This document shows positions 646 through 53,061 of a stretch of DNA of 64,000 nt, one piece after another. A program made the position numbers and the translations under genes. Every line of letters begins with the position of its first letter. Within the stretch, counting starts at the first letter, position 1. The notes beneath the pieces are model-generated. The model had not been told where the DNA came from, ran no database searches, and was given only the letters and a program-made list of their open reading frames with translations. The stretch is from the NCBI RefSeq assembly GCF_030440425.1, contig NZ_CP098023.1:62001-126000 (forward strand), written 5' to 3'. The DNA is from Microbulbifer sp. MI-G. GTDB taxonomy: Bacteria; Pseudomonadota; Gammaproteobacteria; Pseudomonadales; Cellvibrionaceae.

Positions 646-2726
646 TGGCTCAGGATTTTCTGGTAGAGCTGGGCACCGAAGAGCTGCCACCCAGGGCGTT
701 GCACAAATTGATGAACGCTTTCGCCGAGGGTATTACCCAAGGTCTCAAGGGCGCCGAGCTGTCTTTTGGCGAGGTTAAAGCCTACGCAGCTCCGCGCCGC
801 CTGGCAGTAGCGGTGTTCGGCTTGGCAGACAAGCAGCAAGACAAACAAATTGAAAAGCTGGGCCCGGCCGTCAAAGTCGCCTTCGATAAAGAGGGTAAGC
901 CCAGTAAAGCCGCTGAGGGTTTCGCCCGCAGCAACGGCGTGACCGTTGAAGAGCTGGGACGCAAAGAGACTGACAAAGGCGAGCGCCTGGCTTTTATCAG
1001 CGAGCAGAAAGGCGCTGAAACTGAATCCTTATTGGCGGGCATTGTCGAGAAAGCGTTAGCTCAACTGCCTATTCCCAAGCGTATGCGCTGGGGTGCGCGC
1101 CGCGAGGAGTTCGTGCGTCCGGTGCACTGGCTCGTCATGCTGTTTGGCAACAAGGTGGTAGATGGCGAAGTGCTGGGCTTAAAAGCCGGTAATACCAGCC
1201 GTGGTCATCGCTTCCACTGCAATCGCGCGCTGGAGATCCACTCCGCCCACGATTATGCGCAGGTTCTGCGCGAGCCCGGCTACGTAATGGCGGACTTCGC
1301 CGAGCGCCGCGAAGCCATTCGTGCCCAGGTGATTGCCGAGGCCAATAACGTCAACGGTGAAGCGGTAATCGACGACGATTTGCTCGACGAAGTGACTGCG
1401 TTGGTGGAATGGCCTGTCGCCCTCACCGGCCGCTTCGAGGAGCGCTTCCTGGAAGTGCCCGCAGAAGCCCTGATCTCCTCCATGAAGGCGCACCAGAAGT
1501 ATTTCCACGTGGTGAATGAAGATGGCCAATTGCTGCCTTTCTTTATCACCGTGTCCAATATCGAGAGCCAGGATGCCGCCCAGGTGATCCACGGCAATGA
1601 GCGCGTCATCCGCCCGCGACTGGCAGATGCCGCCTTTTTCTTCGAGACCGACAAACAGACCAGTCTGGAGTCTCGTCGGGAGAAATTGCGCCAGATTGTG
1701 TTCCAGCAACATCTGGGCAGTGTCTACGACAAGACCGAGCGGGTCTCCGCTCTGGCGCGTGCCATCGCTGAACAGGTGGGTGCCCACAGCGACTGGGCCG
1801 AACGCGCCGGGCGCCTGTGCAAGTCGGACCTGGTTACCGAAATGGTGTTTGAATTCGCCGATATGCAGGGTATCGCAGGTTACTATTACGCGGAAAACGA
1901 TGGCGAGCCGCTGGATGTAGCCAAGGCCATGTATGAACAGTACATGCCCAAATTCGCCGGTGACGAGCTGCCCGCCAGTGAGACCGGTACCGTGATCGCC
2001 CTGGCGGATCGCCTGGATACTCTGGTGGGCATCTTCGGCATCGGCCAGCCTCCCAGCGGCTCCCGTGATCCCTTCGCCCTGCGCCGCGCCAGCCTCGGCA
2101 TTATCCGCATTCTGGTGGAAAAGCGTCTCGACCTGGATCTGCGCCAACTGCTGGAGCTGGCTCGCGACAACTATCCGCGCACTGCCCTGGGGGAGTATGA
2201 CAGGGTTGTGGAGCAGGCCCTGCAGTATGTGTTGGAGCGCTTTCGCGCCCGTTATGAAGACGAAGGTATCGCCGCCGAGGTGTTTATGTCGGTGGCCGCA
2301 CGCAATTTGTCGTGCCCACTGGATATCGACAACCGCGTGCACGCGGTCAACGCCTTCAGCCAGCTGCCGGAGTCCGGTGCCCTGGCTGCCGCCAACAAGC
2401 GTGTTTCCAATATCCTCGCCAAGCTTGACACCGCCTTGCCCGAAACTATCGACGAGGCCCTGTTGCAGGAAGAGGCGGAGAAGGCCCTGTACGCCGCTGT
2501 GCAGGTGGCCCGAGCTGAGGTGGAGCCGCTGTACAGCGATGCGCACTTCGCCGAGGGTCTCGCTGGCCTGGCGGGTTTGCGGGAAACCGTAGACACTTTC
2601 TTTGACCGTGTGATGGTGATGAGCGACGACGAGCGACTGCGCGAGAACCGCCTGGCCCTGCTGGCCCAGCTGCGGGCACTGTTTCTGCAAGTTGCCGATA
2701 TTTCCCTGCTGGCACCGGCCAAATAA
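645..2726 (+). CDS. glyS: Glycine-tRNA ligase beta subunit
   Basis: Beta subunit of heterotetrameric glycyl-tRNA synthetase, needed for tRNA-Gly recognition. It has 693 residues, the normal size. The N terminus (DFLVELGTEELPP) and the blocks RRLAVAVFGL, MRWGARREEFVRPVHW and SSMKAHQKYF are diagnostic, and the C-terminal anticodon-binding-like region is complete. The start ATG overlaps the glyQ stop by one base, and GAGGAG lies about 10 nt upstream within glyQ. It is followed by the gmhB-like gene, the usual Pseudomonas-type order. Confidence 0.97.
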   Translation: MAQDFLVELGTEELPPRALHKLMNAFAEGITQGLKGAELSFGEVKAYAAPRRLAVAVFGLADKQQDKQIEKLGPAVKVAFDKEGKPSKAAEGFARSNGVTVEELGRKETDKGERLAFISEQKGAETESLLAGIVEKALAQLPIPKRMRWGARREEFVRPVHWLVMLFGNKVVDGEVLGLKAGNTSRGHRFHCNRALEIHSAHDYAQVLREPGYVMADFAERREAIRAQVIAEANNVNGEAVIDDDLLDEVTALVEWPVALTGRFEERFLEVPAEALISSMKAHQKYFHVVNEDGQLLPFFITVSNIESQDAAQVIHGNERVIRPRLADAAFFFETDKQTSLESRREKLRQIVFQQHLGSVYDKTERVSALARAIAEQVGAHSDWAERAGRLCKSDLVTEMVFEFADMQGIAGYYYAENDGEPLDVAKAMYEQYMPKFAGDELPASETGTVIALADRLDTLVGIFGIGQPPSGSRDPFALRRASLGIIRILVEKRLDLDLRQLLELARDNYPRTALGEYDRVVEQALQYVLERFRARYEDEGIAAEVFMSVAARNLSCPLDIDNRVHAVNAFSQLPESGALAAANKRVSNILAKLDTALPETIDEALLQEEAEKALYAAVQVARAEVEPLYSDAHFAEGLAGLAGLRETVDTFFDRVMVMSDDERLRENRLALLAQLRALFLQVADISLLAPAK

Positions 2727-2781
2727 CCCCTATAGGAGCCCCGGCTTCTGCTTCGCTTCAAACCAACAGGGCGCATCAGTC

Positions 2782-3369
2782 ATGCCAATGATCATTCTCG
2801 GGCGCGATGGGGTTATCAACGAAGCCCCCGACACCTGCGTCAGATCTGCTGATGAGTGGCAGCCCCTGCCCGGCAGTATCGAAGCCCTGGCTGCGCTCAG
2901 TCGCGCCGGTTACCAACTGGTGATTGCCACCAACCAGAGCGGTCTGACCCTCGGTCGGTTTGATCTCGATGACCTTGAGGCCATACATACCAGGTTGCGC
3001 GCGCTGGTGGAGGATGCCGGCGGTGAGATCGCCGCGATCTTTTACTGCCCCCACGGCCCCGAGGACCACTGCCGTTGCCGTAAACCCAAACCGGGATTAC
3101 TCGAAGCGATAGAGGCGGAGTTCGATACCAGTTTGCACGGATGCTATCTGCTTGGGGATAAGCTCGAGGATTTGCAGTTGGCGCTGGCAAAAGGCTGCAA
3201 GCCGGTACTGCTTAAATCCGGTGAGGGGGAACGCACGTTGAAAAAGATAATGGCGCATTCCAATCCAGACCTTGAGAACACGGTTCTATTTGCGGACTTG
3301 GCGCAGTTTGCTCAATTTTTGTTGGGCGGGTGTGTGGAGGACGCAAACAGGTTTCCGGCTGCGCCTTGA
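2782..3369 (+). CDS. gmhB: GmhB-like HAD phosphatase with altered nucleophile site
   Basis: Resembles D-glycero-D-manno-heptose-1,7-bisphosphate 7-phosphatase of ADP-heptose (LPS core) synthesis, and its place after glyS supports that. HAD motif II (ATNQSG), motif III (CRKPKPG), motif IV (LLGDKLEDLQ) and the zinc site (CPHGPEDHCRCR) are all present. Motif I reads LGRDGVINE instead of LDRDGVIN: the first Asp, the phosphoryl-accepting nucleophile, is Gly (codon GGG, bases 2800-2802). As written the protein should be catalytically impaired. The ATG at 2782 puts the HAD motif at the very N terminus, as in homologues; an upstream in-frame ATG (2692) would lie inside glyS. 195 residues. Confidence 0.85.
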   Translation: MPMIILGRDGVINEAPDTCVRSADEWQPLPGSIEALAALSRAGYQLVIATNQSGLTLGRFDLDDLEAIHTRLRALVEDAGGEIAAIFYCPHGPEDHCRCRKPKPGLLEAIEAEFDTSLHGCYLLGDKLEDLQLALAKGCKPVLLKSGEGERTLKKIMAHSNPDLENTVLFADLAQFAQFLLGGCVEDANRFPAAP

Positions 3370-3678
3370 ACCGGTCGATTTGCATATACATGACTTGCTT
3401 ATCTTTCTCTACCTGCCCTTTCCGCCGCACCCATCACTACACAATAAATTGTGTGCCAACACGTTGAGTTGTAGACGACATTCCTTTAAAAGCTGGTAAT
3501 GGGACGGGCAAGTCCACCATTGCAACCGCTATTTCTGACAGACCATGGATGGGCGCGGCGTTTCGAAGAGGGCCCTGTTGCGCGGCACTGAAAATACAGT
3601 GTGTGCCGCAGCGTTACAGAGATTACCCTGCCAGCCGCTATTTTCCCGCCTGCGTAAAAACATAAAAGGAACTTTTTA
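3370..3678. other. Intergenic stretch between gmhB and subtilase gene
   Basis: About 310 bases with no supported gene. It should hold the promoter of the secreted protease. An AAGGA ribosome-binding site lies just upstream of 3679. No repeat or RNA gene was recognised. Confidence 0.5.
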
Positions 3679-6660
3679 ATGAAAAAAACGATAATTTTCG
3701 CGCTCATGACCGGACTGCTCATTTCGGGCAGCAGTTTTGCTGAAACGGGCAGTGGCAAACCCGCTGCCAATGCCGAAAAGCACAGAAAGGTTTATATCGT
3801 TCAACTAAATGGTGAACCGCTATCCTCTTACAGCGGCGCCGCCCCCGGATCGTCCGCGGTGAAATCCGCTTTGCAGCGCAGGCTTGACCTGCGCAGCGGC
3901 AGCTACCGACACTATGCCGGGTTCCTCAAGTCGCGCCGTGAGCGGGTGCTGTCCTCCATGCCCAGTGTGCGCAAGGTGCATGAGTACGATACGGCCTTTA
4001 ACGGTTTCGCGGCGGTAATGAGCAAAAAAGAAGCCGAGGCGTTGCGCAGTCACACTGAGGTCAAGGGCGTATGGGAAGATCGTCTGCTCAAACCCCATAC
4101 AGATTCCACTGCGGACTTTCTCGGCCTGACCCGTGTACCCAGCCCCTGGCTCTGGGGGATAACCGGTGAAAATGTGGTTGTCGGTGTGATCGATAGCGGT
4201 ATTCACCCCGAGCATCTGAGCCTTGCCGACATCCCCACGCCCCGCCAGGGTAACCGCGGCGCTTCTATTCCCTACGGGCCTGTGCCCGAATCCTTTGTTG
4301 GCGAGGGCTGTGATTTCGGCAATACCGCATTCAACCCCAACGACGCTGCCTTCACCTGTAACAACAAACTGATCAAGGCCAAGTCCTTTTCCGACGCCTT
4401 CCGCTCCACGGGTACACTGGCGGACTACGAATTCCTCTCTGCGCGGGATGCCGACGGGCACGGCACCCACACCGCCACCACCGCCGCCGGCAACTACGGT
4501 GTGGTGACACCGGAAGGGGAAACCCTTACCGGCATGGCGCCGCGGGCAAGGGTTGCCGTGTACAAGGTATGCTGGGATGCGCCGAACCCGGACGACAGCG
4601 GCTGCTCCTCGGCGGACGCTATGGCGGCTATTGACGAGGCCGTGGCCGATGGCGTGGACGTGATCAACTACTCTGTGGGTGGCGGCAGCACCATCTTCAC
4701 CGGTGCGGACGATATCGCATACCTGTTTGCTGCGGATGCGGGTGTTTTCGTTGCCACTTCCGCCGGTAACGGGGGCCCCGGTGTCGCCACCATCGGCACA
4801 CCTTCCGGCGTTCCCTGGATCACCGCAGTGGCTGCCGCTGAGGATGACCAACGCTTTGGTACAGCATTGCGCGTGGATTCACCAGCGCCTATCGCCGGAA
4901 CTTACGATGCTCTGGAGGGCAGTGGCCCCGTCTCCATGCAGGACGCTGGGCTGCTGTCGGCACCTGTCCTCGTCAGTGTGCCGCTCGAAGCTTGCGCTGC
5001 ACTCGATAACAGCGCGGTTATGGCAGGCAAAATCGCCCTGGTAAAACGCGGGGGCTGCTCCTTCACGGACAAGTACAATAATGTGGCGGACGCCGGTGCG
5101 GTTGCGATCGTCGTATACAACGATGGCACGGCGGAGGATCGCTTTGATCCGATTGCCATGTCCGCGCCGGACACGCGTATTCCCGGCGTGATGATCCGCT
5201 ATGCGGATGGCGAACTGATTGCGGGCAGTGAAGGCGTCAGTGGCATACTGGACCCCGCACTGCAGATTTCCCGCGAAGACCGTATCGCCAGCTTTTCCTC
5301 CCGGGGCTACAATGCCGGCGCGCCGGATATTATCAAGCCGGATGTGGCGGCACCGGGTGTTGGCATTCTCGCCGGTATTTCGCCGACGCTAAGCGGTGGC
5401 AGCCTATTTGGACGCCTGAGTGGTACCTCCATGGCCAGCCCCCATGTGGCTGGTGTGATGGCGCTGCTGAAACAGGCCCACCCGGACTGGTCTCCGGCAA
5501 TGGCCAAGTCCGCGCTTATGAGTACGGCCCGCACCGACTTGCGCAAAACATTCGGCCCGGAAATGGCAGATCCGTTCGATATCGGTGCCGGCGCCATCGC
5601 ACCCTCTTCCGCTCTCCAGCCCGGCCTGGTTTACGACGCCGGTTTTAATGACTATTTGGCGTTTTTATGCGGCGCTGAAAATCAGCCGCAAATTGTCGAG
5701 CGCACGACCTGTGACAACCTGGTTAATCTGGGTTATTCCATTGACAGCAGTGACCTGAACTTGCCCTCTATCGGTATTGGTGCACTGGTGGGAACCCAGA
5801 CCGTAAAACGCCGTGTCACCAGCGTATCCCGCGGCTCAAAGTGGTACTGGGTCTCGGTTAATGCGCCGGTTGGTGTCGAGGTACAGGTACATCCGCGCGT
5901 GCTGCGATTAAGAGAGGGGGAAAGCGCGGAGTTTGAGGTTACGTTCACAGTCACTGAGAACGCTGCAATGAACAAGTGGGCTTTCGGCGACCTGAGCTGG
6001 CAATCAGTGGGCACCCGCTACTATGTGCGCAGCCCCGTCGCCGTCCGTCCGGTAGCCTTGTCGGCACCAACACAGGTCGCCGCTGAAGGTACCGACGGCA
6101 TCCTCAATCTGGATGTGCGGTTCGGCTATAACGGCGACTACCAGGTGACGGTAAACGGCCTGGCAGAAGGCGTGGCCAATCCCGGCAGTGTAGAGGACGG
6201 CGGTTCCCAATTGATCTTCTTCGACGTGCCGGAAGGAACGAATCTGGCCCGCATAGCCCTGTTCGATGCCGATGTAGGCGATGGCAGCGGCAGTGATGAT
6301 CTGGATTTACGGGTGTTTGGGCCGGCTCCCGATTTCCCGGAAGTGGGCAGCAGCGGTTCTGAAACCTCTACCGAGTCCGTGACCATACTCAACCCCGCGC
6401 CCGGGGAATACGCCGCGTTTGTCGATGACTACGATTCTGCAGCAGGCGCAACGCCTTTCACGCTGTTTAATTTCAACCTGACCGGTGACAGTGGCAATAC
6501 CCAGTTGAATGCACCGGGCCAGGCGCAACTGAATAGCAGCGGCACTATCGCGCTTGAGTGGATGGGGCTTGCGCCCAATACCCGCGCCCTCGGCATCCTG
6601 AACCACGGCAATGGCGCGCAGGCCTTCGCGGAAACTGAAGTGATGGTCAACACTCAGTGA
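3679..6660 (+). CDS. Secreted S8 family serine peptidase (subtilase)
   Basis: Extracellular subtilisin-like protease, 993 residues. A signal peptide (about residues 1-21, MKKTIIFALMTGLLISGSSF then AE) is followed by an I9-type propeptide (about 35-140). The catalytic triad is visible: Asp172 in VIDSGIHPEH, His261 in DADGHGTHT, Ser584 in SGTSMASPHVAG; the oxyanion Asn is about 364 (SAGNGGPG). A protease-associated (PA) domain is inserted at about 430-520 (KIALVKRGGCSFTDKY), followed by a fibronectin-III-like domain and a PPC-like C terminus rich in Asp and Gly. This is the cucumisin-like layout seen in marine bacteria. AAGGAAC precedes the ATG. Monocistronic, with a strong terminator after it. 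Confidence 0.93.
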   Translation: MKKTIIFALMTGLLISGSSFAETGSGKPAANAEKHRKVYIVQLNGEPLSSYSGAAPGSSAVKSALQRRLDLRSGSYRHYAGFLKSRRERVLSSMPSVRKVHEYDTAFNGFAAVMSKKEAEALRSHTEVKGVWEDRLLKPHTDSTADFLGLTRVPSPWLWGITGENVVVGVIDSGIHPEHLSLADIPTPRQGNRGASIPYGPVPESFVGEGCDFGNTAFNPNDAAFTCNNKLIKAKSFSDAFRSTGTLADYEFLSARDADGHGTHTATTAAGNYGVVTPEGETLTGMAPRARVAVYKVCWDAPNPDDSGCSSADAMAAIDEAVADGVDVINYSVGGGSTIFTGADDIAYLFAADAGVFVATSAGNGGPGVATIGTPSGVPWITAVAAAEDDQRFGTALRVDSPAPIAGTYDALEGSGPVSMQDAGLLSAPVLVSVPLEACAALDNSAVMAGKIALVKRGGCSFTDKYNNVADAGAVAIVVYNDGTAEDRFDPIAMSAPDTRIPGVMIRYADGELIAGSEGVSGILDPALQISREDRIASFSSRGYNAGAPDIIKPDVAAPGVGILAGISPTLSGGSLFGRLSGTSMASPHVAGVMALLKQAHPDWSPAMAKSALMSTARTDLRKTFGPEMADPFDIGAGAIAPSSALQPGLVYDAGFNDYLAFLCGAENQPQIVERTTCDNLVNLGYSIDSSDLNLPSIGIGALVGTQTVKRRVTSVSRGSKWYWVSVNAPVGVEVQVHPRVLRLREGESAEFEVTFTVTENAAMNKWAFGDLSWQSVGTRYYVRSPVAVRPVALSAPTQVAAEGTDGILNLDVRFGYNGDYQVTVNGLAEGVANPGSVEDGGSQLIFFDVPEGTNLARIALFDADVGDGSGSDDLDLRVFGPAPDFPEVGSSGSETSTESVTILNPAPGEYAAFVDDYDSAAGATPFTLFNFNLTGDSGNTQLNAPGQAQLNSSGTIALEWMGLAPNTRALGILNHGNGAQAFAETEVMVNTQ

Positions 6661-19582: not shown

Positions 19583-22321
19583 ATGAGTAAACAAAGCTCC
19601 GGTGCCGCTCCGCTGATTTTGGTGGATGGTTCTTCTTACCTGTATCGCGCCTACCATGCCCTGCCACCGCTGACAACCAGCCAGGGAAAGCCCACCGGTG
19701 CGGTTCGCGGAGTCATCAGCATGTTGCGCCGCCACTTGAAGGAGCACGCCGACAGTACTGTGGTAGTGGTGTTTGATGCCAAGGGCAAAACCTTTCGCGA
19801 CGAGATGTTTGCTGAGTACAAGTCCCACCGCCCGCCGATGCCCGATGACCTGCGCGAGCAGATTCAGCCGATTCACGACATTATCGACGCGATGGGCCTG
19901 TCCCGTCTGGTTGTGGATGGGGTTGAGGCAGATGATGTGATCGGCACCCTGGCATTGGAGGCCCAGCGCAGCGGCCAGGAAGTGATTATTTCCACCGGTG
20001 ACAAGGATATGGCGCAACTGGTGCGCCCGGGGATCACCCTGGTCAACACCATGTCCAATACCGAGATGGACACAGACGGCGTGGTAAAGAAGTTCGGCAT
20101 AGGGCCCGAACTGATTATCGATTTCCTCGCCCTGATGGGTGATAAGTCCGACAACATTCCCGGTGTGCCAGGCGTTGGAGAAAAGACGGCGTTGGCGCTG
20201 TTGCAGAACCTTGGTGGCCTTAAAGAGATTTACGCCGATCTGGGTGCCATCGCCACTCTGGGTTTTCGCGGCGCCAAGACCCTCGGCAGTAAAATGGCCG
20301 AACATCGCGCGGCGGCACAGCTGTCTTACCGGCTCGCCACCATCAAGACCGATGTGGAAATGCCCTACCATCCCCGGAACTTGCACAATTCTGCACCGAA
20401 TATCGGAAAGTTGATCGAGTTGTTCGGACAAAACGAGTTTCGCACCTGGCTGGAAGAGCTGACCAGCGATAAGGCCGAGGAGGCCATGGCCGAGGCGGTG
20501 GAGCGGGACTATGTGGTTGTGACAGCAATGGCCGAACTGGATGCCTGGCTGCAGCGGCTCAAAAAGGCAAAAATCTTTGCCTTTGATACGGAGACCACCA
20601 GCCTCAACTATATGCAGGCCAGACTGGTGGGGGTGTCCTTTGCGGTTGAACCCTACCGCGCCGCCTACGTGCCGCTGGCACACGATTATATGGGCGCACC
20701 TGAGCAGCTGCCATTTGAACAGGTACTGCAGAAGCTCAAGCCGCTTCTGGAGGACGAGAAGCAAAGGAAAGTGGGGCAGAATTTAAAATACGACAGCCAT
20801 ATTCTGGCCAACTACGGCATTAGGCTGCGTGGTATTGCGCGGGATACCATGCTGGAATCCTATGTACTCGACAGCACTGCCAGCCGTCATGATATGGACA
20901 GCCTCGCGCTCAAATACCTGGGTGAGCATACGGTGCATTTTGAGGATATTGCCGGCAAAGGCGCCAAACAGCTGACTTTTAATCAGATACCGTTGGACAA
21001 AGCCGGCCCCTACGCGGCAGAGGATGCCGATATCACCCTGCGCCTGCATCGGGAGTTGAACGGCCGCCTGGCGCGAGTGCCGTCTCTGGTAAAGGTACTC
21101 GATGATATCGAGATGCCCCTGCTGCCGGTGCTTGTACGTATGGAGCGCAACGGCGCCTACATAGATGCAAAAATGCTCGCGGCACAGAGTGCCGAACTGG
21201 AACAGGAGATGCGTGAGCTGGAACAGCAGGCCTACGCGGTGGCAGGAGAGGAATTCAATCTGAGTTCCACCAAGCAGCTGGGGGCAATTCTTTTTGAAAA
21301 GTTACAGATTCCGGTGATCAAGAAAACCCCCAAGGGAGCGCCTTCCACGGCGGAGGCGGTGTTGCAGGAGCTGGCCCACAATCACGAGTTACCGGCGTTG
21401 ATCATGCAGTACCGGGGCCTGGCCAAGCTGAAAAACACCTATACCGACAAACTGCCGAAAATGATTGATCCTGCCAGTGGCCGTGTACACACCTCCTACC
21501 ACCAGGCGGTAACAGCCACTGGGCGACTTTCTTCCAGCGATCCCAACCTGCAAAATATCCCGATTCGCACCGAGGAGGGTCGCCGAATCCGTCGGGCTTT
21601 CACCGCGGACCCACGTGTCAATGGTGGCAGCGAGATCATCGCTGCGGACTATTCGCAAATCGAGTTGCGCATTATGGCGCACCTGTCTGCAGACCGAGGG
21701 CTGGTGAATGCCTTTGAACGCGGTGCTGATATCCACCGCGCCACTGCCGCGGAAGTGTTTGAAGTGGCCTTGGATCGGGTCAGCGACGAGCAGCGCCGCC
21801 GCGCCAAGGCCATCAATTTTGGCCTGATTTATGGCATGTCGGCCTACGGCCTGGCCAGGCAGCTGGGCATTCCCCGCGCGGATGCCCAGACCTATATAGA
21901 CCGTTACTTCGAGCGCTATCCGGGGGTTCTGCACTATATGGAGAACACCCGTAAGCAGGCTGCGGAAAAAGGCTATGTGGAAACCCTGTTTGGCCGTCGT
22001 CTGTACCTGCCGGAGATCCGCTCTCGCAATGCGATGCAGCGCCAGGCCGCCGAGCGCACCGCGATCAATGCGCCTATGCAGGGCACAGCCGCAGACATTA
22101 TCAAGCGCGCCATGATCGCGGTGGATACCTGGCTCAATAGGCAAAACCTGACCAGCAAGCTGATCCTGCAGGTGCACGATGAACTGGTACTGGAGGTGCC
22201 CAAGCCGGAAATAGAGACGGTTGCAACTGCTCTGGCGGAATTAATGCAGGGCGCTGCGCAGTTGCGCGTGCCGTTGACTGTTGATCTGGGACATGGCAAA
22301 GACTGGGATCAGGCGCATTGA
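19583..22321 (+). CDS. polA: DNA polymerase I
   Basis: Repair and Okazaki-fragment-processing polymerase, 912 residues. The N-terminal 5'-3' exonuclease (about 1-300; [44 protein letters not shown]) is followed by an intact 3'-5' proofreading domain ([10 protein letters not shown] near 333) and the polymerase domain. Motif A is [14 protein letters not shown] (Asp about 689), motif [21 protein letters not shown] and motif [12 protein letters not shown] (about 864). All catalytic positions appear conserved. In gammaproteobacteria the region downstream of polA, before engB, carries the Spot 42 or ErsA small RNA; here it holds sRNA candidates as well. Confidence 0.98.
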
Positions 22322-22471: not shown

Positions 22472-22500
22472 GGAACTGTTCCGGCGACAGCCCCTCTAAA
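22472..22500 (+). promoter_or_regulatory. Sigma-E/AlgU-like promoter of sRNA candidate 1
   Basis: A GGAACTG -35 element is separated by 16 bases from TCTAAA as -10, fitting the extracytoplasmic sigma factor pattern (GGAAC ... TCTGA/TCAAA). The GGAAC starts exactly 35 bases before the inferred transcript start at 22507. The same arrangement and distance occur upstream of the second, related RNA. Confidence 0.55.
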
Positions 22501-22506
22501 GTGGCA

Positions 22507-22585
22507 AGATCGTTGGAATGCGTCATCATCCCCCAAGGAAGTCAGATGTTTGCCCCGGAACTCCCCAAGTCCGGGGCATTTTTTT
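22507..22585 (+). ncRNA. Candidate small RNA 1 downstream of polA (Spot 42/ErsA position)
   Basis: About 79 nt, from AGATCGTTGG to the T run of a strong terminator (TGCCCCGGA / TCCGGGGCA, 22551-22585). The unpaired middle holds ATCCCCCAAGG and the terminator loop holds CTCCCCAAG, so CCCC tracts could pair with Shine-Dalgarno regions. It aligns with candidate 2 at 24131: both begin AGATC-x-TTG, then CCCCAA, then TCAG, then the same CCCCGGA...TCCGGGG terminator. Location after polA matches spf in E. coli and ersA in Pseudomonas; sequence identity to those is not claimed. Confidence 0.6.
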
Positions 22586-23055
22586 GTCCTCTCAAGTTGA
22601 ATCTTCCCCCGCCAGGCACTCTTTTGTGTCCTTTCTCATCCACTCCATTTCACAACCCTGAATGGCAGACCCTTTGGAGGTTTACTGGGCTAATCTGAGC
22701 ACTACAGAGACCTAATTTCCACAGTGAGCATCTTCAGGGGCCTGTTCCCAGGGTCCGCTGACCTGCGGTTTGGCGTGTTGTATAAATGAGGATATTTGGG
22801 TTTTGTTTGCCTGAAGAGTGGCGGTGTGGGCTCCTGAAATACCATCCTCACCGCCAAGTTGGGTAGGTATTGCACGGGTGGCGAAGCATGAAAGATGGCA
22901 CTCCCATTGGGCTGCCGGGTTTATCAAAAGAGAGACTGCGGTATCGATGCATAGATTAAATGAGCATATTCCCCGTGCCGCCCACCAGCTTCAGGAGCCG
23001 TTGGCATGACGCATAGGGTGGGTTTGACTTCCCGGTGGTTTGCGGGAGGTTGGTT
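22586..23055. other. Intergenic region before the PRPP-synthetase-like gene
   Basis: About 470 bases with no supported gene. GGGAGG at the right end serves the next CDS. Short frames here lack support. Confidence 0.4.
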
Positions 23056-24024
23056 ATGGGTCGCTTGAAGCTATTTAGCCTGGATGTTGGCGCCGATTTT
23101 TGTGGACGCGTGGCCGCTGCCCTGGGAGAGCCCCTTTCCCGACACGAGGAACGCAGTTTTGTGGATGGTGAGCACAAGGTGCGCCCTCTGGACGACGTGG
23201 AGGGGGCCGATGTGTTCCTTGTGCAGTCCCTGTATGCCGATGTGTGCAGCAGTCTTGATGAAAAACTGTTGCGCAGCCTGTTTTTTATTGGCGCCCTCAA
23301 GGATGCCGGGGCATCGCGTATCACTTTCGTGATGCCCTATCTGTGTTACGGGCGCAAGGATCGGCGTACAAGGTTGCACGACCCCTTGCCAACACAGTAT
23401 CTGGCCAGCTTGCTGGAGTCAGCCGGTACCCACACAGTTATGACGATGGACGCCCATAATTTATCCGCTTTTGAGAATGCGTTCCGCTGTCGCACTGTGC
23501 ATTTGCTTGCCCGGCCTCTCCTGGTGGCGTTTGCCGCAGGACGACTGGCTGGAGAGCAGCGGCCACTGGTGGTGTTATCGCCGGATGAGGGTGGTATCAA
23601 GCGCGCGGAAATGTTTCGCCGGGCTCTGAGTGAGTGCTTAGAGAGAGCGATCGGCAGAGTTTTTGTCGAGAAATATCGCAGTGGCGAGCAGATCAGTGGT
23701 GGCACCTTGATTGGTGAAGTGGAGGGAACGGTGGTGCTGATTGTGGATGACCTGATTGCCAGCGGTGCAACTCTCTGTCGGGCAACGCTGGCAGCTGAGG
23801 CTGCGGGGGCTGCGGGTATCGTTGCTCTCGCGAGTCACGGCCAGTTCAGTGGAGATGCCAGAGCCCTTGTGTCGCGCCTTCCACTGGAGGTCGTTGCCCT
23901 GACCAACTCCCTGCCCCAGACAGACTTGCCGAACAATTGCGAACTGCTCGATTGTGCGCCTCTTCTCGCAGAGGGAATCCGTCGCCTGCACGACAACGGC
24001 CCGGTGTGTGAACTGACCATTTGA
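23056..24024 (+). CDS. Ribose-phosphate pyrophosphokinase family protein (PRPP synthetase-like)
   Basis: 322 residues, in the PRPP synthetase fold (ribose-5-phosphate + ATP to PRPP + AMP, cytoplasmic). It has the N-terminal RHEERSFVDGEHKVRP region, YLCYGRKDRRTR (ATP/flexible-loop block), TMDAHNLSAFENAF (pyrophosphate/metal His), VVLSPDEGGIKRAE and the PRPP-binding VLIVDDLIASGATL. ATG 23056 is preferred because of GGGAGG 8 bases upstream. It differs from housekeeping Prs in many places, so it is probably a paralogue, similar to the NAD- or phosphonate-linked Prs2 types. It lies between two related sRNA candidates. Confidence 0.85.
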   Translation: MGRLKLFSLDVGADFCGRVAAALGEPLSRHEERSFVDGEHKVRPLDDVEGADVFLVQSLYADVCSSLDEKLLRSLFFIGALKDAGASRITFVMPYLCYGRKDRRTRLHDPLPTQYLASLLESAGTHTVMTMDAHNLSAFENAFRCRTVHLLARPLLVAFAAGRLAGEQRPLVVLSPDEGGIKRAEMFRRALSECLERAIGRVFVEKYRSGEQISGGTLIGEVEGTVVLIVDDLIASGATLCRATLAAEAAGAAGIVALASHGQFSGDARALVSRLPLEVVALTNSLPQTDLPNNCELLDCAPLLAEGIRRLHDNGPVCELTI

Positions 24025-24095
24025 AGGGCTTTCCCTGTGAATACCGGCCACAGGTCCAAAACATCCACCATTTACATTTATTTACTCCAGTCTCG

Positions 24096-24124
24096 GGAAC
24101 AAAGGGATGCCCGGTCGTATCCAA
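24096..24124 (+). promoter_or_regulatory. Sigma-E/AlgU-like promoter of sRNA candidate 2
   Basis: GGAACAA followed after 17 bases by TCCAA. The GGAAC lies exactly 35 bases before the AGATC start of the RNA, as in candidate 1. Pattern match supported by the shared spacing. Confidence 0.45.
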
Positions 24125-24130
24125 TCCACC

Positions 24131-24205
24131 AGATCATTGTTACTCTCTAACCCCAAAGCGTTCAGCTTTTTCACCCCGGACTATCCCCATCTCCGGGGTT
24201 TTTTT
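24131..24205 (+). ncRNA. Candidate small RNA 2, paralogue of candidate 1
   Basis: About 75 nt from AGATCATTG to a Rho-independent terminator (ACCCCGGA / TCCGGGGT, loop CTATCCCCATC, then T7; 24173-24205). It matches candidate 1 in start, in a central CCCCAA, in TCAG and in the terminator stem, with a different loop flank but the same exposed TCCCCA. It could also be read as the terminator of the upstream PRPP-synthetase-like gene, 150 bases away. Both roles are compatible. Confidence 0.55.
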
Positions 24206-24288
24206 CTCCCTGAATGCCCCCTGGGGGATGGATGGCAGGTGACGGTTTTCCGGGTAGAAATCCGGGCTAGTTGACAAGATTGGAATCT

Positions 24289-24327: not shown

Positions 24328-24513
24328 ATTCCTCTGATCGCTTTACTCGCCGGGTGGGAATACCAACGGCAGCAACCTAAGCTTCCCTGTGTGGAGGATC
24401 TTGCATTGAAGAGGAACCCTCAGGCGTACCCGTCCCCCTGGGTGCGCTTGGCAAGTGCCCATCCCCAAGGGCACTGACTCCTGGCCGGCAGTCCCCATCT
24501 GCCGGCTTTTTTT
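24328..24513 (+). ncRNA. Candidate small RNA 3 with three CCCC-loop hairpins
   Basis: An approximately 186-nt transcript is inferred from the TATAGT box to a strong terminator. Its last 90 bases fold as three consecutive hairpins: 24424-24447 (8-bp stem, loop GTCCCCCT), 24454-24475 (7-bp stem, loop ATCCCCAA) and 24484-24513 (8-bp stem GCCGGCAG / CTGCCGGC, loop TCCCCAT, then T7). All three loops expose UCCCC, the type of seed used by several bacterial sRNAs to pair with GGGGA Shine-Dalgarno sequences. No coding frame in the stretch looks protein-like. The 5' end is a guess. Confidence 0.5.
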
Positions 24514-24575
24514 ATACTCAAAAAGCTCCTGCCAGGACTCCTTAAGCAAGCGGCAAAAATTCAGTTTAATTATTT

Positions 24576-24594
24576 GCAAATGATAATTGTTCGC
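24576..24594 (+). promoter_or_regulatory. Candidate Fur box
   Basis: GCAAATGATAATTGTTCGC matches the Fur consensus (GATAATGATAATCATTATC) well in its core AATGATAATT and lies about 35 bases upstream of the GTG at 24630. Confidence 0.6.
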
Positions 24595-24629
24595 ATTACA
24601 CTGAGTGTGTTTCAAGCAAGGGAATTATC

Positions 24630-25088
24630 GTGAATTTACGTTACCTATGCGCAAACCACCGCCAGTGGTTGATTGCTGACACGGATCGTGCGGAAAAAAC
24701 GTGGCTGGACTGGATAGAACTGGGCAAGATCCTCTCTGAAGAGGGCAATGAAAAAGAGGCGATTCCCTATCTGGGATGCGCTTTTGACCTTGCGGGCTTT
24801 CTGCTGGCAAAACAGTGGCCAAGCTATGCCGTGTCTGCGACACGCTTTAGTGAAAACGCCCTCTGCCTGATGGCAGCCTACCGGGAGTTGGGGGATGAAA
24901 AATTACACCGCTATATTCTCGCCGGCGCCAGTTCAATCCTCGCGCGCCAGCTTGGAGATGGCCTCAAGCAGCGGATTGCCGCTGACTGTATCAGTGCCCT
25001 CTATCCAACGGGTGTCGGCGACGCAATGCAAAAAGCAGCCCAAGCTAGATGGCCCGTCCACCTCGACAGAGATTGCCGGCTGCACTGA
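24630..25088 (+). CDS. Small TPR-like protein of unknown function, probably Fur-regulated
   Basis: 152 residues, cytoplasmic (no signal peptide), all-helical in appearance. Repeated helices such as WLDWIELGKILSEEGNEKEA and ALCLMAAYRELGDEKLHRYI follow the W/LG/Y/A spacing of tetratricopeptide-like repeats. The end, DRDCRLH, recalls the end of Vibrio DUF2753 proteins, but this is weak. The upstream Fur box suggests expression under iron limitation. GTG start with AAGCAAGGG upstream. The next frame overlaps its 3' end and may be a frameshifted continuation. Confidence 0.65.
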   Translation: MNLRYLCANHRQWLIADTDRAEKTWLDWIELGKILSEEGNEKEAIPYLGCAFDLAGFLLAKQWPSYAVSATRFSENALCLMAAYRELGDEKLHRYILAGASSILARQLGDGLKQRIAADCISALYPTGVGDAMQKAAQARWPVHLDRDCRLH

Positions 25089-25398: not shown

Positions 25399-26058
25399 TC
25401 AGCTACTTGTGGCGGAGGGCTCCGTGCGGGATATGAGCCATTCATTCAATTTGCGCTCCAGCGTGTCGATACCCGTTTTCCTGGTGGAGGAGAACAGCTG
25501 CAGGGTAACCTCCCGGTCCAGACCCTGCTCCCTGAGGGCTTTCTCCACGGCAAAGCGGATATTATTGGCGGGGCCATGCTTCAACTTATCCGCTTTGGTG
25601 AGCAGGCAATGCACAGGCAGGCCTGCCTCAACCGCCCAGGTCAGCATATGCAGGTCGAACTCCTTGAGGGGCTGGCGTATGTCCATCAACAGCACCAGGC
25701 CGCGCAGACATTGGCGCTGCTCCAGATAGGCAGCCAGGTGGCGCTGCCACTCGTCTTTCATAACACGGGCCACCTTGGCATAGCCATACCCGGGCAGATC
25801 CACCAGTCGCTGCTGCTCAGACAGGCTGAAGAAGTTGATCAACTGGGTGCGCCCGGGTGTCTTGGAGGTTCGCGCCAGCTTGCTGTTGCCGGTCAACGCG
25901 TTGATGGCGCTGGATTTTCCCGCATTGGAGCGGCCGGCAAAGGCCACTTCGGCGCCGGAGTCCTCCGGGCACTCGGCCAGGGTGGGCGCACTGGTCAGAA
26001 ATCGTATAGCACGGTAGTTCAGTTTTTGCGGCTGGGCATTCAGTTTGACAATTGACAT
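25399..26058 (-). CDS. engB: Ribosome biogenesis GTPase EngB/YihA
   Basis: Essential GTPase of 50S subunit assembly, 219 residues. G1 is [13 protein letters not shown]2 region [11 protein letters not shown]3 [11 protein letters not shown]4 LTKADK and G5 near SSTRKTG. Length and order are normal. It is transcribed toward polA, the conserved polA-(sRNA)-engB neighbourhood, and divergently from the cytochrome c4 gene. Confidence 0.96.

Positions 26059-51844: not shown

Positions 51845-53061
<1,217 letters not shown>

Follow-up and report, generated by a model that had tools for sequence, protein, structure and literature searches.

The interval between polA and engB was examined in a stretch of 64,000 nucleotides from Microbulbifer sp. 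MI-G (contig NZ_CP098023.1, positions 62,001–126,000). This whole stretch is referred to here as the window, and all coordinates are window positions. The interval appears to contain three separate small RNA genes, designated RNA1, RNA2 and RNA3, all on the polA strand. An initial annotation, made from the letters of the sequence, had described two paralogous small RNAs on either side of a phosphoribosyl pyrophosphate (PRPP) synthetase-like gene; both were borne out but the count was incomplete, a third RNA being found at 24414–24513. The gene at 25399–26058 is taken to be engB. The features are as follows.

19583–22321, forward strand: polA, the left border of the interval (PF00476, 560 bits)
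22472–22499, forward strand: putative RNA1 promoter, -35 GGAAC at 22472–22476, 18 bases, -10 TCTAA at 22495–22499
22507–22586, forward strand: RNA1, about 80 nucleotides with an inferred start, exposed C-runs CCCCC and UCCCCA
22551–22578, forward strand: RNA1 terminator hairpin, UCCCCA in the loop
23056–24024, forward strand: PRPP-synthetase-like gene between RNA1 and RNA2 (PF13793, PF14572; TIGR01251, 210.6 bits against a cut-off of 113)
24071–24086, forward strand: TTTACA[TC]TTATTTAC element upstream of the RNA2 promoter, conserved in all 11 loci of clade A (the window and L031–L040)
24096–24124, forward strand: putative RNA2 promoter, -35 GGAAC at 24096–24100, 19 bases, -10 TCCAA at 24120–24124
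24131–24206, forward strand: RNA2, about 75 nucleotides with an inferred start, exposed C-runs CCCC and UCCCCA
24173–24199, forward strand: RNA2 terminator hairpin, UCCCCA in the loop
24356–24381, forward strand: RNA3 promoter-like element GGGAA...CCTAA, with GGAAC-N18-TC at the homologous place in clade C (18 loci)
24414–24513, forward strand: RNA3 body, three hairpins with loops UCCCCC, AUCCCCAA and UCCCCAU
25399–26058, reverse strand: engB, the right border of the interval (MMR_HSR1 GTPase match)

The letters and distances quoted in the initial annotation were all found in place. GGAAC at 22472 and 24096 is in each case 35 bases before AGATC (22507 and 24131, respectively), and the -10 elements TCTAA (22495) and TCCAA (24120) follow it after 18 and 19 bases. 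Both RNAs begin with AGATC-x-TTG, contain CCCCAA and TCAG, and end with CCCCGGA...TCCGGGG and a T-run, with UCCCCA in the loop.

Sequences extending up to 6 kb after polA were taken from 45 of 47 relatives in the same genus, and RNA1 was found at all 45 loci as well as in the window. Both polA and engB were seen in the window and at 28 other loci of the genus, and RNA1 is located between the two genes in all of these. The covariance-model search proposed in the initial annotation, run with an RNA1 model over 96 whole genomes, detected RNA1 in 48 of 48 genomes of the genus, including its own, and gave weak matches in 3 of the 48 others. GGAAC-N18-TCTAA precedes RNA1 in 46 of 46 loci with an invariable spacing of 18 bases, while the spacers themselves comprise 37 distinct sequences with a mean identity of only 45 %. 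Because the spacing is fixed while the spacer sequence diverges, this element is best read as a promoter. The transcript is conserved from AGATCGTTGGA through the terminator in nearly all rows of the alignment, with L075 the most diverged. A third, weak match to the RNA1 model (28.4 bits) was seen away from the polA locus in one genome (G024:C9:397606–397683).

Since the start of RNA1 is 186 bases past the polA stop codon and that of RNA2 is 107 bases past the stop codon of the PRPP-synthetase-like gene, and both have strong terminators, the elements might be mere 3' ends of these genes rather than separate RNAs. However, the conserved block opens with the fixed-spacing promoter and has a 5' half that is more conserved than the spacer, and at one locus (L042) RNA2 follows a different gene, encoding a class II ribonucleotide reductase. 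We consider this explanation very unlikely.

A scan of the MI-G genome with the RNA1 model gave exactly two matches at E≤0.01, namely RNA1 (1e-19), whose sequence is included in the model, and RNA2 (4.5e-6), whose sequence is not. In the window, the RNA1 model matched RNA2 with 41.9 bits (E 3e-7) and an RNA2 model built from 11 close loci matched RNA1 with 36.8 bits (E 6e-7), and the matches were full-length both ways. The RNA2 model also detected RNA2 at ten more distant loci (L042, L051, L057, L063, L064, L066, L070, L072, L073 and L074; 22.8–47.6 bits). A further match to the RNA1 model, which in MI-G is RNA2, was found in 26 of the 48 genomes of the genus, on the same contig and 1.4–10 kb from RNA1 in 25 of them and on another contig in one (G016). 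When the 5' halves without terminators were aligned globally, the score was 33 against a mean of 9.0 for shuffled sequences, and none of 5000 shuffles scored as high; for a second sequence pair, 4 of 5000 dinucleotide shuffles did so. As the 5'-half windows had been picked for likeness, this test carries less weight than the reciprocal model matches, which are unbiased scans, and hmmsearch of the 5' halves gave weak scores with a maximum of 5.2 bits.

The likeness could alternatively have arisen by convergence, with unrelated RNAs selected for the same promoter type and C-loop terminator. The sequences are short and C-rich, and apart from the terminator, AGATC.TTG, CCCCAA and TCAG, the clade-A RNA2 has little in common with RNA1. 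Against this stand the full-length reciprocal matches, the result of the 5'-half shuffles and the RNA2 copies of three clade-B loci (L066, L070 and L072), which have TCTAA upstream and begin with AGATCGTT.TGGAT, the start of RNA1 itself. Convergence is therefore considered very unlikely. Confinement of the likeness to the terminator had been named beforehand as the outcome that would count against kinship, and it was not what was found. On these sequence comparisons, RNA1 and RNA2 are paralogues, as the initial annotation had proposed.

The promoters of both RNAs resemble the element before rpoE, in agreement with the envelope-stress type originally suggested. The MI-G genome has one match above the rpoE cut-off (316 bits against 236), and GGAAC-N19-TC was present approximately 116–146 bases upstream of the matched rpoE start in 20 of 21 genomes. 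When the sigma-E-type pattern was defined as GGAAC with TC 18–19 bases on, as before rpoE, it was found at RNA1 in 46 of 46 loci and at RNA2 in 11 of 11 clade-A loci, with a 19-base spacing in each of the latter. Because a similar GGAAC-N19-TC precedes rpoE in 20 of the 21 genomes, control of the RNA1 and RNA2 promoters by sigma-E is likely. The conserved TTTACA[TC]TTATTTAC element upstream of the RNA2 promoter contains two TTTAC words separated by one helical turn, and is a possible activator site.

In a genome-wide count of the exact form GGAAC-N18-TCTAA, there was no sign of a regulon with exactly that -10, as the string occurs only once, at RNA1. This single occurrence is neither for nor against the RNA sites being real. 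With a 19-base spacer, TCTAA gave 5 matches against 6 in the control. A plain scan of the region for terminators and promoters showed no excess over shuffled sequences (4 terminators against 3.5 expected; 1 sigma-70-type promoter against 1.3).

RNA3 was aligned from 33 loci (31 distinct rows). It folds into three hairpins with a z-score of -5.67, compared with -2.6 for RNA1 and -3.0 for RNA2. In the alignment 97.6 % of cells are paired, and double changes affect 11 of 26 pairs, 7 of them in the first stem; there are 51 double-change cells against 0–4 in controls with slid partners. The 5' end may lie 20–30 bases further upstream of 24414. The terminator loop carries a C-run in clades A and B. 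The RNA1 and RNA2 models gave only weak matches to RNA3 (13–19 bits, E 0.02 or worse), so these models lend no support to RNA3 sharing an ancestor with RNA1 and RNA2.

What precedes RNA3 differs between clades. GGAAC-N18-TC is present 69–84 bases upstream of the RNA3 body in 18 of 18 clade-C loci, but in 0 of 11 clade-A and 0 of 4 clade-B loci; GGGAA...CCTA or a near form occupies the homologous place in all 11 clade-A loci. This bears on an explanation in which all three RNAs are real but separately controlled, RNA3 being an RNA of the sX13 type outside sigma-E control here and only RNA1 and RNA2 responding to envelope stress. The GGGAA...CCTAA element of the window and the weakness of the RNA1 and RNA2 model matches to RNA3 favour it, whereas the clade-C promoters do not, nor do four sX13-like RNAs in another gammaproteobacterium (G264, described below) that are each preceded by GGAAC-N18/19-TCTGAC. 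We consider separate control unlikely, though it retains some weight.

The explanation that we favour, and regard as probable as a whole, is that the locus encodes three trans-acting small RNAs, of which RNA1 and RNA2 are sigma-E-type paralogues and RNA3 is sX13-like, that they act by C-run pairing, and that the PRPP-synthetase-like gene is a bystander. Under envelope stress, RpoE would activate RNA1 and RNA2 and, in clade C at the least, also RNA3. RNA1 and RNA2 would each be transcribed from their own sigma-E/AlgU-type promoter (GGAAC, 18–19 bases, TC) and end at an intrinsic terminator, and they would display UCCCCA in the terminator loop and a second C-run near the middle. The exposed C-runs would pair with the G-rich ribosome-binding sites of target mRNAs and so block translation. 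Transcription, RpoE dependence and target pairing are parts of this scheme that we infer. In the computed folds there are nine runs of at least four C, two of them within terminator stems. Six of the seven runs outside the stems are 91–100 % unpaired, and the remaining one, the internal run of RNA1, is 59 % unpaired. Net length changes not divisible by three occur in 32 of 45, 7 of 10 and 12 of 32 rows of the alignments, which argues against coding.

Several observations weigh against this explanation. The exact GGAAC-N18-TCTAA string is not enriched in the genome, its reversed control occurring 11 times. Covariation in RNA1 is restricted to its terminator, and the RNA2 fold is supported by invariant pairs only. 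In the clade-C RNA3 the terminator loop is CUGCAAU, without a C-run, leaving only two of three loops C-rich. The RNA3 promoter in the clade of the window lacks GGAAC and TC, and three of the four clade-B loci examined fit neither RNA3 promoter pattern. A pattern search of the MI-G genome for partners of the conserved CAUCAUCCCCCAA of RNA1 revealed no convincing target at a ribosome-binding site. ErsA is reported to contact some of its targets through a U-rich single-stranded stretch and not through C-runs (PMC8575079); for anr, a U-rich stretch is the predicted contact (PMC8575079, PMC7565897).

The genes between the RNAs vary. The order in clade A is RNA1, PRPP-synthetase-like gene, RNA2. In L042, the only clade-B locus read gene by gene, the stretch between RNA1 and RNA2 includes a 347-codon divergent gene that belongs to no NCBIfam family; a row of genes at 1386–5569 comprises weak phosphoribosyltransferase and alpha/beta-hydrolase matches, a PRPP synthetase and the class II ribonucleotide reductase (TIGR02504, 583 bits). 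A gene caught between the two RNA copies, as the initial annotation had put it, is thus present in the window, but in L042 it is just one of several. Of this row of nucleotide-metabolism-type genes, the window retains the PRPP-synthetase gene only. An alternative upstream GTG start is possible for it at 23035.

In the 18 clade-C loci, engB is approximately 0.8–1.9 kb after polA, RNA1 and RNA3 are present and no PRPP-synthetase match was found in the interval. Each of the 18 genomes has a single match to the RNA1 model, and the RNA2 model, run on 10 of the 18 loci, gave only RNA1 and weak RNA3 matches. Clade C lacks both the PRPP-synthetase gene and RNA2, so the duplication may have come before or after the insertion. 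In a polA tree of 35 rows (including C_L023, a row with a branch length of 10 that is probably in the wrong reading frame), clade A formed one group (100/100), clades A and B grouped together (96/93) and clade C was on one side of a branch (77/98). This fits both histories, and RNA2 and the PRPP-synthetase gene may have been gained in A and B or lost in C.

The remaining part of the interval contains a 152-codon gene on the forward strand (24630–25088) without a Pfam or NCBIfam family. Upstream of it, AAATGATAATTGTTCGCATT at 24573–24600 resembles a Fur box, so the gene may be iron-regulated.

Beyond the genus, promoter-plus-terminator cassettes were sought within 1 kb after polA, requiring [GT]GAAC-N17..19-TC followed by an intrinsic terminator 85–215 bases on. 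Of 34 loci at family or order level, 16 have such a cassette and three of these have two copies; shuffled sequences would give 0.3, and the opposite strand gave 1 of 34. In a set of 80 named loci, where longer loops were permitted than in the 34-locus test, 24 were positive, two of them Microbulbifer (0.3 expected from shuffles; 3 of 80 on the other strand). This strict test misses the known ErsA loci L079 and L223 (ErsA by Rfam). In another genus of the family, two near-identical tandem promoter-plus-terminator units follow polA (L081 in G054, 224–548).

With strict filters, the RNA3 model matched 14 of 274 genomes of the class, including MI-G. In 11 of the 13 others, inspected by eye (not L132 and L136), the match was to a terminator only; one of these, L141, is beside polA. 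Silence in this search does not count as evidence of absence, as it missed an array that the unfiltered model finds. That array is at the G264 locus (L261, reverse strand, approximately 1500–2330), where four tandem small-RNA-like genes are located between polA and engB. Each copy follows GGAAC-N18/19-TCTGAC, with a fifth GGAAC...TC match inside a copy, and each has three C-loop hairpins (by eye and by full-length model match). The sX13 model matches one copy, at 48.3 bits and so narrowly below the cut-off, and the unfiltered RNA3 model finds all four at 21–28 bits. Searching the 80 named polA loci with the RNA3 model yielded 5 matches at E≤1, directly after polA in an unclassified gammaproteobacterial assembly (L173, 32.6 bits), in a Methylothermaceae assembly (L163, 23.9 bits) and weakly in L147, and elsewhere in L191 and L196. 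The sX13 model exceeded its cut-off in 2 of the 274 genomes, both times beside polA, and matched 12 loci at E≤0.001, six with polA within 1.5 kb flanks and one more with engB.

The locus also suggests that ErsA and sX13, which have been studied separately, could be two branches of a single family. More tentatively, and with somewhat less than even confidence, we suggest that the interval after polA is an ancient source of stress-controlled C-loop RNAs in Gammaproteobacteria. In this view ErsA, sX13 and the three Microbulbifer RNAs would share descent from a single C-loop RNA, driven by sigma-E and copied in tandem to give one to four genes per genome, with the G264 array as the connecting form. 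A whole-word search of open-licence PubMed Central found no paper naming ErsA and sX13 together, the listings of open-licence papers searched showed no description of the three-RNA arrangement or the G264 array, and among the papers listed for Microbulbifer and small RNAs none was about such RNAs by title. These two arrangements are the new part of this work.

When the whole window was scanned with Rfam at gathering thresholds, two matches resulted, neither at the polA–engB locus. Elsewhere in the window, an ALIL pseudoknot (RF01497, 101 bits), a structure known from insertion sequences, lies at 52123–52239. The Rfam models for ErsA (RF01719, cut-off 50 bits), sX13 (RF02232, 50 bits) and Spot 42 (RF00021, 80 bits) were also searched against 21 Microbulbifer genomes. 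As none of RNA1, RNA2 and RNA3 reached a cut-off in the scans made, they are not filed as members of these families.

The place between polA and engB shared with ErsA, on which the initial annotation had based its assignment to an ErsA-position family, stands but does not establish membership. None of the 21 genomes reached the ErsA cut-off, the better sub-threshold matches (at most 25.4 bits) were elsewhere in the genomes, and the locus in the window had no match at E≤5. Sub-threshold matches at RNA2 (G014, 20.3 bits; G003, 18.2 bits) were not the best of the search. In one Microbulbifer genome the ErsA model has a sub-threshold match of 25 bits at a site away from polA (L254, G008:C1:1995340–1995443); the terminator loop there is a long C-run, and the site is possibly another C-loop RNA. 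ErsA was found by Rfam in three of four Pseudomonas-type loci scanned (L156, L186 and L223, not L157) and in L079, where the RNA1 model matched weakly (19.0 bits, E 0.047). ErsA is located between polA and engB (PMC8575079) and depends on sigma-22 (PMC7565897), a dependence that the sequence and spacing of the GGAAC/TC promoters of RNA1 and RNA2 would fit. Of 14 loci from Pseudomonas, Halopseudomonas or Pseudomonadaceae, 12 have a cassette after polA with UCCCCAU, the motif of RNA1 and RNA2, in its terminator loop. In contrast, the ErsA model has 116 positions against about 80 nucleotides, and Microbulbifer has up to two copies plus a third RNA. ErsA is described as having three stem-loops and an Hfq-dependent action on several targets (PMC8575079, PMC7565897).

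Spot 42 (spf) of enterobacteria and vibrios is likewise encoded downstream of polA (PMC3771888), but none of the 21 genomes exceeded its cut-off and no sub-threshold match was seen at the polA locus. MicA and RybB are short enterobacterial RNAs with sigma-E promoters, characterized by GGAACTTTT and GTCAAA (PMC1804206); RNA1 and RNA2 resemble them as short RNAs with putative sigma-E-type promoters. MicA and RybB differ in genomic place and in targeting porin mRNAs, whereas the conserved exposed parts of RNA1, RNA2 and RNA3 are C-runs.

The sX13 model remained under 50 bits in all scans of RNA3 (best G005 with 43.4 bits and a genome-wide E of 1e-6; L066, 41.6; window alone, 32.4), and in the 21-genome search it matched RNA3 in only three genomes (G005, G012 and G001), with none at E≤1 in MI-G itself. 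Conversely, the RNA3 model scored 23.2 and 20.3 bits on the two over-cut-off sX13 loci, where unrelated places in those 37 kb reached 18.8. RNA3 of the window nevertheless shares with sX13 three stable stems with C-rich apical loops, as seen in the folds, the covariation and the unpaired C-runs; the clade-C RNA3, with no C-run in its terminator loop, is less alike. The sX13 gene of Xanthomonas is adjacent to polA (PMC3771888); RNA3 is in the same interval but separated from polA by RNA1 and, in clades A and B, by other genes as well. The sX13 RNA acts independently of Hfq, its C-rich loops engaging G-rich motifs close to start codons (PMC3771888). The Microbulbifer RNAs most likely resemble ErsA in control and sX13 in action. 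The authors of the sX13 study raised the question of whether the polA loci of other bacteria encode small RNAs that act alike (PMC3771888). The Microbulbifer locus suggests that they do throughout a marine genus, where there are three candidates and not just one, and it offers a tractable system for asking whether several C-loop RNAs at one place serve to adjust dosage or to divide the labour.

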